Below, in pieces: positions 6,666 to 15,256 of a stretch of DNA of 20,342 nucleotides. The stretch's first letter is position 1. Every line of letters begins with the position of its first letter. A program made the translations under genes and the position numbers. The DNA is from a virus. The notes beneath the pieces were generated by a model. That model had not been told where the DNA came from. It saw only the letters and a program-made list of their open reading frames with translations, and did not search any database. The stretch covers positions 1 through 20,342 of the IMG/VR virus record IMGVR_UViG_3300012269_000034; one strand, written 5' to 3'.

Positions 6666-7052
6666 TTAGGTCTTAGGCGTTCGATCAGCGGGGGCTTTTG
6701 AAAACGGGCTTTTGCCTTCGTTTAGGCCAGCCGCAAATGCGTCGCTCATTTCGCGCAGTAAAACGGCTTCCCATGGTTCGATGTGGTCCATGGTTAAGGA
6801 TGCGTAGGCCGCGACGTCAGCCCAATCCAAGGCGTAGAAACCACCCATCGGCGCAGACTTAACCGGCCCCGCTTCCATCAACAAATCTAGCATGTAACCG
6901 CCCGCGCGAACCTTAACAAAGGGCGCGGGCGTTTTGGTAGCTTCGTGCCGCATCAAGCGGCTTTCCTTTGGGCGGTCTGACTTGTCTTTGTATTCAATGA
7001 CAGCGTTTAGCCAGCCGAGTTGATGCGCGGCAAGGATTAACCGCTTTTTGCG
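6666..7052 (-). CDS. Tail assembly chaperone, GT-type C-terminal extension read after -1 frameshift
   Basis: This frame is continuous with the upstream chaperone gene through the -1 frame at the slippery site (7052-7058). After slippage, translation continues from base 7052 for 128 residues and stops at 6666, giving a fusion of about 291 aa. The first 32 codons (7052-6957) have no ATG. A TTG at 6956 or ATG at 6953 could permit separate initiation (AGGA lies about 10 bases upstream), so independent translation is not excluded. The peptide includes APFVKVRAGGYMLDLLMEAGP and HIEPWEAVLLREMSDAFAAG. In lambda the equivalent gpGT binds the tape measure protein during tail assembly; here it also lies immediately before the tape measure gene. 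Confidence 0.75.
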   Translation of the reverse strand, partial: RKKRLILAAHQLGWLNAVIEYKDKSDRPKESRLMRHEATKTPAPFVKVRAGGYMLDLLMEAGPVKSAPMGGFYALDWADVAAYASLTMDHIEPWEAVLLREMSDAFAAGLNEGKSPFSKAPADRTPKT

Positions 7053-7540
7053 TTTCCCAAGCGGTTAGCCTGCTTGGCTGCAAACTTATTGCACTGCATG
7101 GAAAAAGGGTTGTTCTTCATTTCAAAAACAGGCTCGCCGTCTTTGTTTAAAACAGGCTCTCCGTCCTTTTCTTTCACGCCCATCACTGGAAACGAAAGGT
7201 TAAGAAACCACATGGCATCCTCTGCTGTGGCTGGCTTGTCGCCGTTGTTGACGTTTTCAAAGCCAACGATAAACCGCGCCGCCGCTTCGCAAAGCGTGTT
7301 GTGCGTATCTTCCATCACGCGGGCCTCGTCTTTATCGTCACCCTTGGCCTTCTTAGACATCATGGCCGCTTTTTGTGTCGCGCGCATAGCCGCCTGCATG
7401 GAAGCCGACGCAGTGCCGCGCAGGATAACCCGGCACGGCTTGTCACCATCCATCATAGGCTCGCCGGTCCATTCATCCATGATCTGCATAGGCGTTCCGG
7501 CTTCGGCTTTCGCACGGCTGTCAAATTTGTTAAAGTCCAT
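7037..7540 (-). CDS. Tail assembly chaperone, lambda gpG-like
   Basis: This 167-aa protein lies between the tail tube and tape measure genes, the standard place for the short form of the tail assembly chaperone. The N-terminus (MDFNKFDSRAKAEAGTPMQIMD) and DGDKPCRVILRGTASASM are of the kind seen in phage proteins that describe the tube-associated chaperone. Near the end (TLCEAAARFIVGFENV, AEDAMWFLNLSFPV) helices dominate. The last codons contain GGGAAAC in the phase G-GGA-AAC, five codons before the stop, allowing a fraction of ribosomes to enter the downstream -1 frame. The ribosome-binding site is weak (GAAAG) and lies just after a structured spacer. Confidence 0.8.
   Translation of the reverse strand: MDFNKFDSRAKAEAGTPMQIMDEWTGEPMMDGDKPCRVILRGTASASMQAAMRATQKAAMMSKKAKGDDKDEARVMEDTHNTLCEAAARFIVGFENVNNGDKPATAEDAMWFLNLSFPVMGVKEKDGEPVLNKDGEPVFEMKNNPFSMQCNKFAAKQANRLGNAKSG
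7052..7058 (-). promoter_or_regulatory. Programmed -1 ribosomal frameshift site GGGAAAC
   Basis: Read on the minus strand, zero-frame codons TTG-GGA-AAC give the canonical X-XXY-YYZ heptamer G-GGA-AAC. Lambda uses G-GGA-AAG at the same place in its G/T genes. The -1 frame continues open for 128 codons into the next ORF. The heptamer starts the 12-base loop of a perfect 9-bp inverted repeat, TAACCGCTT / AAGCGGTTA (7038-7067). Neither a database search nor a folding calculation was run. Confidence 0.8.
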
Positions 7541-7558
7541 TGGTTATTCTTTCGTGGT

Positions 7559-7603
7559 TCTGGTTCAAAGTGGGGTGACGGGCGAACCAGACCTCGTCAC
7601 CCC
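7559..7603 (-). promoter_or_regulatory. Structured RNA spacer with potential H-type pseudoknot between tail tube and chaperone genes
   Basis: In the mRNA a perfect 9-bp stem forms between GGGGTGACG (7603-7595) and CGTCACCCC (7580-7572). Its loop contains TCTGGTTC (7591-7584), which is perfectly complementary to GAACCAGA (7566-7559) downstream of the stem. Pairing both at once would make an H-type pseudoknot of 9 and 8 bp; alternatively the two helices could exclude each other. A third small hairpin, TCCGC-TTAG-GCGGA (7618-7605), lies between this element and the tail tube stop codon. There is no U-run, so it does not look like an intrinsic terminator. It may stabilise or uncouple the highly expressed tail tube message from the chaperone. 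Confidence 0.6.
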
Positions 7604-7619
7604 TTCCGCCTAAGCGGAT

Positions 7620-8105
7620 TTAGGAAGGCTCAACATCAACCACTGTGGCGGCGTTCTGCTTGAACGCAATTGTCGCGCCTTCGTGACTGTCAACTGAGGA
7701 TGGATTGTCTACCAAGTCGTGCAGGTATCCCGTCGCGTATTGGACGGGATCGCCTGCTACAAGGGCAGGCCCATCAACGCCAACAGCTCCGGAACCGCGT
7801 GCGATCTTGAGCGTGTACGTGCCAGGCCGTGCATTGGCCGCTACGATTGCCGTAGCAACACCGGGGTCTGACCCGTCGCCATGATACATGAATGACGTCT
7901 CCTTGCCGCTCGCTTGGGCTTTTTCCGTCTTGGTAAACCCTGTGGCAAGGTCAACGACATCTTGGCCAGCGTGATCAACGCCAAACACGGGGCCAACTTC
8001 AATGCCTTTAAGCTGCACAAAGGTCAAAGCTTCCATGCCCGTCTTGTTGTTTGTTGCGGGTGCGCCAGCGACGCCCCACACTGTAATTCCGATATTAACA
8101 GCCAT
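7620..8105 (-). CDS. Major tail protein (tail tube subunit)
   Basis: This 161-aa protein is the likely tube-forming subunit. It lies just before the chaperone pair and tape measure gene, as major tail proteins do in siphophages. The sequence begins MAVNIGITVWGVAGAPATNNKTG and then alternates short beta-like strands with loops (TFVQLKGIEVGPVFGVDHAG, ASGKETSFMYHGDGSDP, GATIAFKQNAATVVDVEPS), suitable for the tube beta-barrel fold. AAAGGAT precedes the ATG. It is followed by strong RNA secondary structure, consistent with high-level expression. Identification rests on gene order and size. Confidence 0.75.
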   Translation of the reverse strand: MAVNIGITVWGVAGAPATNNKTGMEALTFVQLKGIEVGPVFGVDHAGQDVVDLATGFTKTEKAQASGKETSFMYHGDGSDPGVATAIVAANARPGTYTLKIARGSGAVGVDGPALVAGDPVQYATGYLHDLVDNPSSVDSHEGATIAFKQNAATVVDVEPS

Positions 8106-12164: not shown

Positions 12165-12341
12165 TTAGGCATCAAATGCGGCACTGGAACCTGCAAAAAC
12201 CCTAAATGCGACTGCGTAAACGTCAGGTTCAATCAACAATTTATCTTTGCCACTATATTCTTTCATGAAGGTTTCGGCAAGATCAATGGCTTTTGCTGGT
12301 TTCGACTTGTTCACTTCTTTGATAATTTGGTCAAACGTCAT
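12165..12341 (-). CDS. Small protein of unknown function (58 aa)
   Basis: The ATG overlaps the MuF stop as ATGA, so it is probably translated by coupling. The product begins MTFDQIIKEVNKSKPAKAI and includes LAETFMKEYSGKDKLLIEP and DVYAVAFRVFAGSSAAFDA at its end. It looks like one or two amphipathic helices followed by a short strand, and has no signal peptide or known motif. If the MuF C-terminal metallopeptidase-like domain is toxic or a protease, a coupled small protein would be a reasonable candidate partner or inhibitor; this is speculation. Confidence 0.65.
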   Translation of the reverse strand: MTFDQIIKEVNKSKPAKAIDLAETFMKEYSGKDKLLIEPDVYAVAFRVFAGSSAAFDA

Positions 12342-15256
12342 ATTGCTGCATCCTTTTCCCTGAAAATTTCTAGCAATTTGGGGTGTATTCTGTAATGCTC
12401 CGAGTCAGGCAACCTGTTGTATATGGTGAAACATTCGGCTACATATTCAATTGGCAGCGTGTTTCCATAAGACGAAACAAGATAGCCCCAACCTGTTTCA
12501 GTCGGCCTTACCTCCGTCAAGAAGTTGTCGATTTCAACCTTTGCCACGTTGTCATGAAACAGGTGGCCGTATTCGTGCGTGATTGTGGCCCTTGATTGGT
12601 CTACGCCATCGAAACCAACTGGTATCGAGTGCCTGTACTCAGAATCCGGCATGGACTTGACGCGCGCCGCAAGGTCAGGCCCTAAGTCCCCAATTTCTTC
12701 TAAGCCCTGCGTCCTTGCTGCCAAGTGCTTTACCTGAGTGTTTTTCGCTATCTCGTACATCAATTCGTTCCTCCTGCCAAAATCGTCAGGTAAATGAAGC
12801 ACTGTAAACGAGTCACCATTCTTGCGGGTTGCGGTCACTATTGCGCCGCCGACACCCGGCGGCATCCGCAAATCGCGAATAACCTTTGTTGCGTTTCCTG
12901 TAAAATCAACTTCCGGCGTCCCAAATCGCTCCTTCATTTCAAGGGCCTGCATTGGCACAGCCCGAACAGATGCGGGTTCTCCCTTAATCTCACTCCGCCT
13001 TGAAATGCCCCTATCAACCATCATTCGGTTTGAGGCCGCTGCGCTTTTAGGTGCTGCAATAGTGTCAAACGTAAATGTGGGCTTAACACGAGTAACGGGC
13101 GCTACCATCCGCGCCTGCAATTCCATCAACGTCAACGGCCGCCCGTTAGCATCCATCAAATCCCTGAACGATATATCCCCATCGCGCCATAGCTTCGCAC
13201 GACCTACGCCAAGGTTTGCGTCCTGATCGGCAACCGACCGCCGCGATAGCCAGCCCTCGAAAGAGGTGTCTTGCGGTATCTGCCCGTCCAAGCTGGCCCG
13301 CGTGGTTTCTGGCACCTCGTCAATGTCTAGGCCCAATTCGCGGAATGACTTCAGCACGGGCGTTGATGTTGACCGGCAATTCGAAACTGCGATTCCGTTG
13401 GCAATGTAAGAGGCGTCAGTTTTCACTTCCAAATCATAAACATTGCCGCTATAAGTATGCAACCCCAATGAAAGGACCACGTCATGCCCAAACTGAACCC
13501 CGCCCTTGCAGACATCATAAACCGGAGGCATATCGCAGACGGGTTTTCCCTGCGACGCATTGAGCGAGAGGAAGGATTGAGCAACGGCATTCTTTCTAGC
13601 TACGCCAAAAGGCACGGCTTGACTGTCCGCAACAAAACTGACCAAGCCAGACTTGATCACGATAGCGGAAAAATCGTTAACCCTTCCGGCGCTGAACATT
13701 GGGGATTTGGACAAACCAAAGAAACCCACGCCAAATATGCCGAAGCGTCTGCTCGCATGACCACGAACAACCCTACAAAGGTTCCTGAAGCTGTTGCCAA
13801 GGCTCTTGCAACAAAGCGCGCCAATGGCTTCGGAGACACCATGCGCGCGCGCCTTGGTGGTATCCCCCTCACTCACGATCATAGATACAAGGTGGCCAAG
13901 GGAATCGCGCCCTACTTCAGAGAGAACATGACTAACAGAGAGCATATGATGTCTGAAGCTTTGATCTCTATTGATAGCAAGTGGGTCGCCCAATATCATT
14001 TTGATTGCGCGGTTCTCGACTTCGCCCGCCCAGATATTAGATGCGCATTCGAACCCGATGTCGGGGGCCACAAGCTTGAGCGCTCGCTTGGCCGCGACGC
14101 CGCCCTCGTCCGTCAGGGCTGGACCATATTCAGGTTTCGCTGCGACAAGGTCGCAAGCCCTGATTATTTCCTTCATGCAATAAGCATCGCTGCGCAGATC
14201 ATCCCCGACCTTCAAGGCCCCCGCGAATTTCCAGTCGCCCGAAAATATGGGGTGGTCATCCGTTGCCCTGAGAACCCCGCCGGACTTCGTGTTTATCACC
14301 CTGACGACGCCGCCCTTAAGGGGCTTGCATTTCGTATCGGTGACGGGCTTCCACCTGCCAAGGTGCGTTAAAACAAGGTCGCCAACTTTGACAAACTCAA
14401 TCGGGACAAGGCCTGCCTTTGTCCTGATTAGCGTACCCTCAACCAAAGCGCCCCAATGTAGATTCCCCGGGCCGCCACCCCATGGCAGCGTATGATCAAT
14501 CGGCTCATGCGCACCAACCGTATATGTCAGCCCGTCGCGCGCGCCGCATTCCTCAGTTGTGCGCAGATCAATCGTGCTTACCCACTGTTCTGCCTTTACG
14601 ATGTCGTCATTAGCATCATAGACCGCTTGCCGCGATGCCTGCGAAACCGCTTGCGTTGCCGATCGAACAAGGCTGTCAGCATGGTGGCGCGTGATGTCCA
14701 TAAAGCCCTTGACCACCGCGCCGTTCTGCTTTCCGCCACGGATACGCCGGATAAGCTGCCCGTTCGTCTCACCCTGCGCAATACCAAGCCGCATGTTGTC
14801 TGTGAACCGCGTGAGAGTGTCGCCAGCTTGCCGTGATAGCCAGTCTGACACCGGAGCGCCCTGCACTAGCAGATCGCCCGTAATGGCTACTAGCTGCCCG
14901 CGTGTTAGCTCTGACGTGATAAGCTGTACGCCTGCACCGTTGTTAATTGCAGATACCGCAAACCGCGCTTCCATATCCGCAATCTCGCGCAACTCATTTG
15001 CCAGCCGCTTGCCTTCGCTGCGATAAGACGCGGTGATCGTGCCTTTGACCTGCGCCAGTAGCTTTTCTAGCCGTGTCGCGCGCCGTGATATGCTGCCAAT
15101 GCCCGTTGGATCAATCCGCGCAAGCTGTGCAACAATATCGCCTTGAAGTTCCGTGAGGAATTTATTGACATCACGCGCTTGCCCCGCCGCCAGCCTTTGC
15201 AGGTCCAGCGCGCGGGTTTGCATCGCGTCAAGGATTTTATCGTTTGCGGATGTCAT
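12338..15256 (-). CDS. MuF-type head morphogenesis protein with an intein and a C-terminal HExxH metallopeptidase-like domain
   Basis: The 972-codon frame contains three parts. Residues 1-269 plus 627 onward are a Phage Mu F-type domain (MDITRHHADSLVRSATQAVS, AEQWVSTIDLRTTEECGARD, then LHWG...CRSTSTPV). Residues 270-626 are an intein placed exactly in the conserved 'HWG/CRS' motif. Residues about 690-972 are a tail with ATITHEYGHLFHDN (H894, E895, H898) and later PIEYVAECF (E937 or E941), fitting an HExxH zinc peptidase with a downstream glutamate ligand. After splicing the protein would be 615 aa. MuF proteins act in head assembly, are often packaged, and in temperate phages can carry C-terminal effector domains. 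The start overlaps a 17-codon leader ORF as ATGA. Confidence 0.9.
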   Translation of the reverse strand: MTSANDKILDAMQTRALDLQRLAAGQARDVNKFLTELQGDIVAQLARIDPTGIGSISRRATRLEKLLAQVKGTITASYRSEGKRLANELREIADMEARFAVSAINNGAGVQLITSELTRGQLVAITGDLLVQGAPVSDWLSRQAGDTLTRFTDNMRLGIAQGETNGQLIRRIRGGKQNGAVVKGFMDITRHHADSLVRSATQAVSQASRQAVYDANDDIVKAEQWVSTIDLRTTEECGARDGLTYTVGAHEPIDHTLPWGGGPGNLHWGALVEGTLIRTKAGLVPIEFVKVGDLVLTHLGRWKPVTDTKCKPLKGGVVRVINTKSGGVLRATDDHPIFSGDWKFAGALKVGDDLRSDAYCMKEIIRACDLVAAKPEYGPALTDEGGVAAKRALKLVAPDIGFECASNIWAGEVENRAIKMILGDPLAINRDQSFRHHMLSVSHVLSEVGRDSLGHLVSMIVSEGDTTKARAHGVSEAIGALCCKSLGNSFRNLCRVVRGHASRRFGIFGVGFFGLSKSPMFSAGRVNDFSAIVIKSGLVSFVADSQAVPFGVARKNAVAQSFLSLNASQGKPVCDMPPVYDVCKGGVQFGHDVVLSLGLHTYSGNVYDLEVKTDASYIANGIAVSNCRSTSTPVLKSFRELGLDIDEVPETTRASLDGQIPQDTSFEGWLSRRSVADQDANLGVGRAKLWRDGDISFRDLMDANGRPLTLMELQARMVAPVTRVKPTFTFDTIAAPKSAAASNRMMVDRGISRRSEIKGEPASVRAVPMQALEMKERFGTPEVDFTGNATKVIRDLRMPPGVGGAIVTATRKNGDSFTVLHLPDDFGRRNELMYEIAKNTQVKHLAARTQGLEEIGDLGPDLAARVKSMPDSEYRHSIPVGFDGVDQSRATITHEYGHLFHDNVAKVEIDNFLTEVRPTETGWGYLVSSYGNTLPIEYVAECFTIYNRLPDSEHYRIHPKLLEIFREKDAAI
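13471..13476 (+). promoter_or_regulatory. Ribosome-binding site of the antisense endonuclease gene
   Basis: AAAGGA lies 7 bases before the ATG at 13484 on the plus strand. This is the only plus-strand ORF in the window for which I noted both such a site and a recognisable protein, and it supports translation of the antisense frame. Confidence 0.6.
13484..14371 (+). CDS. Vsr/EDxHD-type homing endonuclease encoded antisense inside the intein
   Basis: The 295-aa protein has an N-terminal helix-turn-helix (about 20-48, FSLRRIEREEGLSNGILSSY), a NUMOD3-like segment (SGAEHWGFGQTKETHAKYAE with NNP after it, 68-97) and a nuclease core. In the core, VLDFARPDIRCAFEPDVGGH leads to LGRDAALVRQGWTIFRF. Asp179, Glu190, Asp192, His196 and Asp205 fit the E-D-x-H-D pattern of Vsr-like homing endonucleases (I-Bth0305I type). 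A ribosome-binding site (AAAGGA) precedes the ATG. It lies wholly within the intein coding region but on the other strand; the nuclease core (to about residue 240) maps between the Hint N- and C-parts, and only the last 50 or so residues oppose Hint block B. Presumably it cuts intein-free MuF alleles. Not tested: activity and target. Confidence 0.85.
   Translation: MPKLNPALADIINRRHIADGFSLRRIEREEGLSNGILSSYAKRHGLTVRNKTDQARLDHDSGKIVNPSGAEHWGFGQTKETHAKYAEASARMTTNNPTKVPEAVAKALATKRANGFGDTMRARLGGIPLTHDHRYKVAKGIAPYFRENMTNREHMMSEALISIDSKWVAQYHFDCAVLDFARPDIRCAFEPDVGGHKLERSLGRDAALVRQGWTIFRFRCDKVASPDYFLHAISIAAQIIPDLQGPREFPVARKYGVVIRCPENPAGLRVYHPDDAALKGLAFRIGDGLPPAKVR

Follow-up and report, generated by a model that had tools for sequence, protein, structure and literature searches.

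The leaders of many phage tail assembly chaperone genes carry a conserved RNA element in which the loop of a hairpin remains complementary to downstream sequence while the letters of the loop vary. The stem is shown, as is, by covariation, the pairing of the loop with each of two tandem partners; the spacing to the start codon is fixed, and among the gene starts tested the element is restricted to this one. We lean toward the view that it is a cis-acting regulatory pseudoknot controlling translation of the chaperone. The effect on translation, the off state and the trigger are all inferred, and there are no expression, probing or binding data.

A predicted pseudoknot in the window

The window is the whole stretch of viral DNA that was analyzed (20,342 nucleotides). 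The element lies in its tail tube-chaperone spacer, 79 nt long (7619-7541) on the minus strand, which is the coding strand here; unless noted, all features below are on that strand. Upstream is an ORF for the major tail tube protein (161 aa, 7620..8105; PHROG 158 major tail protein, E 0.00012). Downstream is the gene for a gpG-like tail assembly chaperone (167 aa, 7037..7540; PHROG 313, E 2.1e-05). Reading the frames, we found a slippery heptamer, GGGAAAC (G GGA AAC; 7052..7058), near the end of the chaperone gene. It is in the correct frame and joins the chaperone to a -1 frame that stops at 6666, as in a gpGT-like product. The downstream gene thus has both hallmarks of a gpG-like chaperone, a profile match and a -1 slippery heptamer.

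From 5' to 3', the tail tube stop codon is followed by a small hairpin (P0), the 5' arm of the main stem (S1), the loop TCTGGTTC, the S1 3' arm, ACTTT, GAACCA, GAACCA, GAAAG and ATG. The S1 arms, GGGGTGACG (7595..7603) and CGTCACCCC (7572..7580), are an exact inverted repeat at 9/9 positions. The loop segment TCTGGTTC (7584..7591, with its core GGTTC at 7588-7584) is the 5' arm of a second helix, S2. It matches at 8/8 positions the S2 3' arm GAACCA(GA) (7559..7566), hereafter copy 1, and S2 is interleaved with S1 as in an H-type pseudoknot. Between S1 and copy 1 is the linker L3, ACTTT (7567..7571), which, like P0 and the Shine-Dalgarno, was read from the sequence. The original prediction had claimed just this 9-bp stem and an 8-base loop segment with a perfect downstream complement, and the claim held: both repeats are exact.

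Two features had been overlooked. The first is a tandem second partner: GAACCA occurs at 7566-7561 and again at 7560-7555, so the loop has two possible partners. The second occurrence, copy 2 (7555..7560), is an alternative S2 3' arm that overlaps the final two bases of the copy 1 8-mer. The 5-base cores of copies 1 and 2 end 21 and 15 nt before the start codon, respectively, and copy 2 lies 0-4 nt before the Shine-Dalgarno, which in the window is GAAAG (7549..7553) and in most relatives has an AGGA-type core. The other overlooked feature is P0 itself (TCCGC-TTAG-GCGGA, 7605..7618), directly 3' of the tail tube stop codon. Judged by eye, many relatives keep P0 with altered letters, and some have none or a different one.

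Could such an arrangement arise by chance? H-type Watson-Crick stems of at least 8+8 appeared in 2 of 20,000 dinucleotide shuffles of the spacer and nowhere else in the window; 7 of 4,054 overlapping tiles were positive, all within 7524-7632. A harsher control kept S1 fixed and shuffled the 31-nt tail 4,000 times. The 8-base loop match then arose in 3.8% of shuffles and two copies of the 6-mer partner in 0.8%. The claim that a chance origin is unlikely hence held for whole-spacer shuffles and was weaker with S1 fixed. Because of that 3.8%, we regard the window alone as only suggestive; the case is carried by the relatives.

The element did not correspond to any known RNA that we looked for. 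At the gathering score, Rfam covariance models gave no match in the window or in 10 relatives. A riboswitch or other known Rfam RNA was rejected, the sole weak match in the window being to a microRNA model (E 3.3). An intrinsic terminator (GC hairpin plus T run) was rejected as well, as none of the 4 predicted sites falls at 7500-7620. So was a frameshift-stimulating pseudoknot: there is no slippery site just upstream in a translated frame. Searching the open-licence PMC literature, we recognized no description of this element.

Covariation among relatives

A search with the tail tube protein found two near-identical contigs only, and for that reason the chaperone was used as the query instead. 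Chaperone protein searches yielded 60, 78 and the best 80 of 84 loci, with many contigs repeated. To these were added one annotated phage and 11 of 15 places found in 11 of 390 sampled genomes of one order (L408, L414, L418 and L419 were left out). In all, 171 loci were used, contig repeats included, and these reduce to 88 distinct 70-nt stretches upstream of chaperone genes. DNA-pattern and RNA-model searches added divergent cases but are biased towards GGTTC; they supplied none of the 88 stretches and 20 of the 100 loci behind the position and S1 analyses of 64 elements described below.

Other searches added little. When annotated phages were searched at the DNA level with 4 kb, the only match was short and uninformative; of the protein scans of viral contigs, one found nothing and two found only close relatives, which were left out of the counts. 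Of 394 sampled genomes, RNA model R1, run under strict filters, picked up the element in 3. Weak RNA-model matches in L251, L107 and L294-L296 were judged on reading to be chance; L298 is a weakened type with the loop GGGTC. The downstream chaperones are diverse: among 10 from pattern-found loci, 8 match PHROG 313 (E <=0.01) and 2 match nothing. Among the named prophage hosts, Gemmobacter and Thiosulfatihalobacter belong to the Rhodobacterales, and a Roseovarius MAG has two copies.

The element is present in 74 of the 88 distinct stretches. Twelve lack it, and there the intergenic gap is at most about a dozen bases (e.g., Paracoccus phage Pkon1). In the remaining two it is disrupted, by an inserted HNH gene (L191) or by loss of the S1 5' arm (L328). 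Since some homologous phages do without it, tail assembly in general does not depend on the element.

Both copies pair fully with the loop, G-U pairs allowed, in 72 of the 74 element-bearing stretches, and both are exact Watson-Crick complements in 58. The parser itself reads two paired copies in 71; we added L240, whose loop is beyond the parser's range and which has GAACC ending at -30 and -21 and GAGCC at -14. The two exceptions, L335 and L336, have the loop GGGTC and copies GAACCC, leaving 4 bp. Because the parser accepts only paired copies, a shuffle control was needed. With the tail 3' of S1 shuffled, two G-U-tolerant copies arose in 114 of 3,650 cases (observed, 71 of 73) and two exact copies in 14 of 3,650 (observed, 58 of 73). 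Loop words borrowed from other elements met two exact copies in 2 of 511 trials.

The loops read GGTTC, GGTTT, GGTTA, GGCTC, GGCTT, GGTGC or GGGAC. Twelve of 71 differ from GGTTC (five GGTTT, two GGTTA, two GGTGC and one each of GGCTC, GGCTT and GGGAC), and in all 12 both copies track the loop, in one case via a G-U pair; GGGAC, for example, is accompanied by GTCCC twice. On a chaperone tree of 71 labelled rows we counted 13 loop-letter changes, of which two may lead to the weakened GGGTC type. A smaller set gave 6 changes, at least 4 of which are forced by well-supported branches. Long branches on the tree leave some placements unsure.

An automatic covariance alignment, A3, was out of register: sliding the structure by -1 column improved its score (76.0% of cells paired, versus 67.7%), a shift that we infer stems from a one-base bulge in S1. 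Hence, we relied on letter-blind parsing, controlled by shuffles, by arm swaps and by other ATG starts. A strict letter-blind detector required a stem of at least 6 bp and a loop 5-mer with two non-overlapping exact complements downstream. It fired in 52 of the 88 stretches; the same detector fired in 2 of 880 shuffles and 1 of 1,041 other ATG starts (same loci, same strand, >=80 aa). Its 36 misses comprise 14 stretches that pass with G-U pairs, 6 with a bulged or mismatched stem (L035, L331, L334, L337, L374 and L376), 2 of the GGGTC type, 12 without the element and the 2 disrupted ones. For S1, native arms fold at a mean of -23.7 kcal/mol, versus -15.7 for arms swapped between elements, and the native arms outdid 95% or more of their swaps in only 42 of 64 elements.

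In principle, replication slippage could keep tandem copies alike, though their variable spacing (5-9 nt) and the variable base that follows them (different in 38 of 64) count against it. A broader objection is that the repeats reflect chance or act at the level of DNA, for instance as a homing endonuclease site, and are not RNA structure at all. The HNH gene inside the element in L191 speaks for this. Against it, the loop and both copies change together on separate branches, and the detector fired in only 2 of 880 shuffles; we consider this explanation virtually eliminated. The original prediction named as its refutation a lack of covariation in homologous spacers. That test was run, the covariation is strong and the potential H-type pseudoknot is supported. 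We conclude that the definition of such a fold, two interleaved helices with the loop paired to a downstream strand, is met by the exact arms in the window, the covariation of S2 and the arm-swap test of S1. This is an inference from sequence alone, without probing data.

At L191:1322-1971, a gene for an HNH/AP2 endonuclease splits the pseudoknot, with the S1 hairpin on one side and the two GAACC copies on the other. The insertion had no Rfam match, so no known intron type was seen; the element may be a homing target. Compared with its close relative L327, L328:480-600 is missing the S1 5' arm along with some of the spacer, through deletion or assembly error. Elsewhere in the window, a 295-aa ORF of the DUF559 endonuclease type (13484-14371, plus strand) runs antisense inside the gene for a head morphogenesis protein (12338-15256, minus strand). 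It lies opposite an intein-like insert (residues about 271-626) whose Hint and Intein_splicing matches are below curated cut-offs. Vibrio phages 1.266.O and 1.265.O have a similar endonuclease protein opposite annotated hint-domain proteins. Because they share this arrangement, the nesting of a homing endonuclease antisense within an intein gene may be a conserved feature.

Position and a proposed mechanism

Across 64 elements, the start codon lies 18-24 nt beyond the end of copy 1 and 12-18 nt beyond the end of copy 2, and in all 64 a Shine-Dalgarno-like core (loose pattern) follows copy 2 within 0-4 nt. The distance from loop to start codon (48.8 +/- 1.8 nt, 25 elements) is much tighter than that from the upstream stop codon to the loop (35.8 +/- 6.0 nt). 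Spacer lengths at 60 loci fall into all three frames (modulo 3: 0 in 22, 1 in 25, 2 in 13). Since the element keeps a fixed distance from the start codon but not from the upstream stop, and the spacer takes all three frames, we assign it to the chaperone gene start.

These positions bear on two other readings. Perhaps the knot stimulates recoding, that is, frameshifting at or readthrough of the tail tube stop codon? The sizes of S1, L1 and S2 do appear to resemble those of coronavirus-type frameshift pseudoknots. However, the knot follows the stop codon, with another hairpin between them in the window, and a spacer length that takes all three values modulo 3 contradicts the frame requirement. 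We regard recoding as practically ruled out. Alternatively, the knot might govern mRNA stability or processing, blocking 3'-to-5' exonucleases and so protecting the upstream tail tube message. Its place directly after the tail tube gene and its strong GC-rich stem would suit such a role. Yet it is anchored to the downstream start codon and not to the upstream stop, and the two partners beside the Shine-Dalgarno would go unexplained. We give this reading very little weight.

Of the three functions originally proposed, regulation of chaperone translation has the best fit: the element keeps its distance to the start codon, and its second partner lies right against the Shine-Dalgarno. Stability as the sole function is a poorer match. 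A switch between two hairpins failed: the data show that the S1 hairpin is kept, its loop having two competing downstream partners.

With one loop and two partners, one of them beside the ribosome site, control of initiation is the simplest reading. We propose that a GC-rich S1 hairpin (about 9-15 bp) presents its loop, 5-8 bases of which would pair with a downstream segment; only one of the two tandem copies could be paired at a time. With copy 2 paired, the folded RNA would be pressed against the Shine-Dalgarno and shut out the 30S subunit (the closed state). With copy 1 paired, the fold would lie ~6 nt further upstream, at the edge of the ribosome footprint, and the Shine-Dalgarno would be freed. 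The balance would set the amount of chaperone relative to the abundant tail tube protein made from the adjacent upstream gene, and it may be shifted by a tail protein, by the ribosome or by nothing, in which case it would be a fixed set-point. We infer that P0 may keep S1 out of reach of a ribosome that is terminating translation of the tail tube gene.

Energies and geometry pull in different directions here. The copy 1 duplex is the stronger in 45 of 64 elements (mean -9.4 versus -8.5 kcal/mol for copy 2). By rough A-form geometry, an S1 of 11-12 bp needs an L3 of ~6 nt or more. Copy 1, with an L3 of mostly 4-7 nt, may thus be strained, and the geometry may suit copy 2 better. It is possible, as an inference, that the two pairings are nearly balanced, copy 1 offering the stronger duplex and copy 2 the better geometry.

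Might the knot instead be an autogenous repressor site of the T4 gene 32 kind, docking a phage protein (tail tube or chaperone) that covers the ribosome site, with copy 2 only tuning the fold? The layout, a pseudoknot 5' of a less structured ribosome site, is shared (PMC535899), and the element adjoins the chaperone start. However, loop and stem letters change freely, which makes a sequence-reading protein unlikely; the UUAAA/UAAA repeats are absent from the window tail ACCACGAAAGAATAACCA (relatives not counted); and the covariation of copy 2 with the loop is left unexplained. There are no binding data, and we doubt this alternative.

Control of initiation by competition between the two copies remains our preferred reading. 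A bolder version would make it a new RNA switch, in which one loop moves between two tandem identical partners and thereby slides the pseudoknot ~6 nt on or off the Shine-Dalgarno. It would be a letter-free design of siphophages in several proteobacterial groups, inherited or repeatedly invented, that meters the tail chaperone against the tail tube protein. We offer this tentatively and would not yet wager on it. Lambda tail assembly depends critically on the 30:1 ratio of its two chaperone forms, and the lambda tail tube protein is present in about 192 copies (PMC5009743). A second, initiation-level control kept through letter turnover would help to explain how a helper is metered against a many-copy tail tube protein encoded on the same message. 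As a switch design, one loop for which two tandem partners compete is simple and testable; it is easily missed because its sequence is not conserved, and it could be sought at other gene starts.

The same junction in annotated phages and known systems

Vibrio phages 1.151.O and 230E39-1 have the same plan at this junction, with a loop TCTCTGTG and CACAGAGA twice, the second running into AGAGAG; the two-copy P values are 0.0003 and 0/4,000, respectively. Caulobacter phage Sansa has GTGGGG with two CCCCAC (P 0.0067), and its S1 stem is annotated as a terminator. In the phiHSIC group, the complement of the loop CCTCTC is the Shine-Dalgarno itself, GAGAGG (P 0.026 for phiHSIC, 0.09 for 1.137.O). 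The closed state agrees with the Vibrio phages, where the partner overlaps or is the Shine-Dalgarno. The Vibrio and Caulobacter cases could be either homologous to the main element or convergent with it.

Not every phage follows the plan. Pseudomonas phage PAE1 and Salicola phage CGphi29 do not meet the two-copy plan, and their single pairings are not significant (P 0.35 and 0.08). No such plan was seen at the junction of Limnohabitans phage DC31, and lambda, HK97 and N15, examined at the tail tube-chaperone junction, have no element.

Other structures occupy this junction. The phiHSIC-like Vibrio phages (L310-L314, L317, L319 and L320) have a strong hairpin with the CCTCTC loop in the spacer, and GAGAGG lies between the TTGATT and AATCAA arms of a second hairpin, so that a loop-loop contact is possible. 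In phage sp. 438212 (L302:1130-1194) a hairpin, GTCCTTTTCAAAGGAC, covers the chaperone Shine-Dalgarno, another structural restraint on a chaperone gene. Junction hairpins are annotated as terminators in Sansa (L316:570-609), HK97 (L322:444-463) and N15 (L323:2097-2114).

Among known systems, the nearest is the translational operator of T4/RB69 gene 32 (PMC535899), in which an H-type pseudoknot likewise lies on the 5' side of a phage gene's ribosome site. That knot is bound by gp32, as are the UUAAA/UAAA repeats downstream of it, whereas the window tail has no such repeats; here, one loop has two tandem partners, and the gene is a different one. In T4 the homing endonuclease gene segG overlaps the gene 32 operator (PMC535899), and here an HNH gene interrupts the element in L191. 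With the lambda-type gpG/gpGT system (PMC5009743) the element's gene shares a tail chaperone with a -1 slippery heptamer near the gene end. The control described in lambda is frameshifting at that end (PMC5009743), whereas we propose control of initiation; the lambda V-G spacer is just 15 nt and has no knot.

Two further classes invite comparison. The H-type pseudoknot of the coronavirus (IBV) type has S1, L1 and S2 of similar sizes; in contrast, the present knot lies outside a translated frame, has no preceding slippery site and has two 3' partners. Leader pseudoknots of ribosomal-protein genes, such as that of S15, sit just 5' of or over the Shine-Dalgarno and control initiation. Their ligand is a ribosomal protein, and to our knowledge no S15-type leader has an alternative tandem partner.
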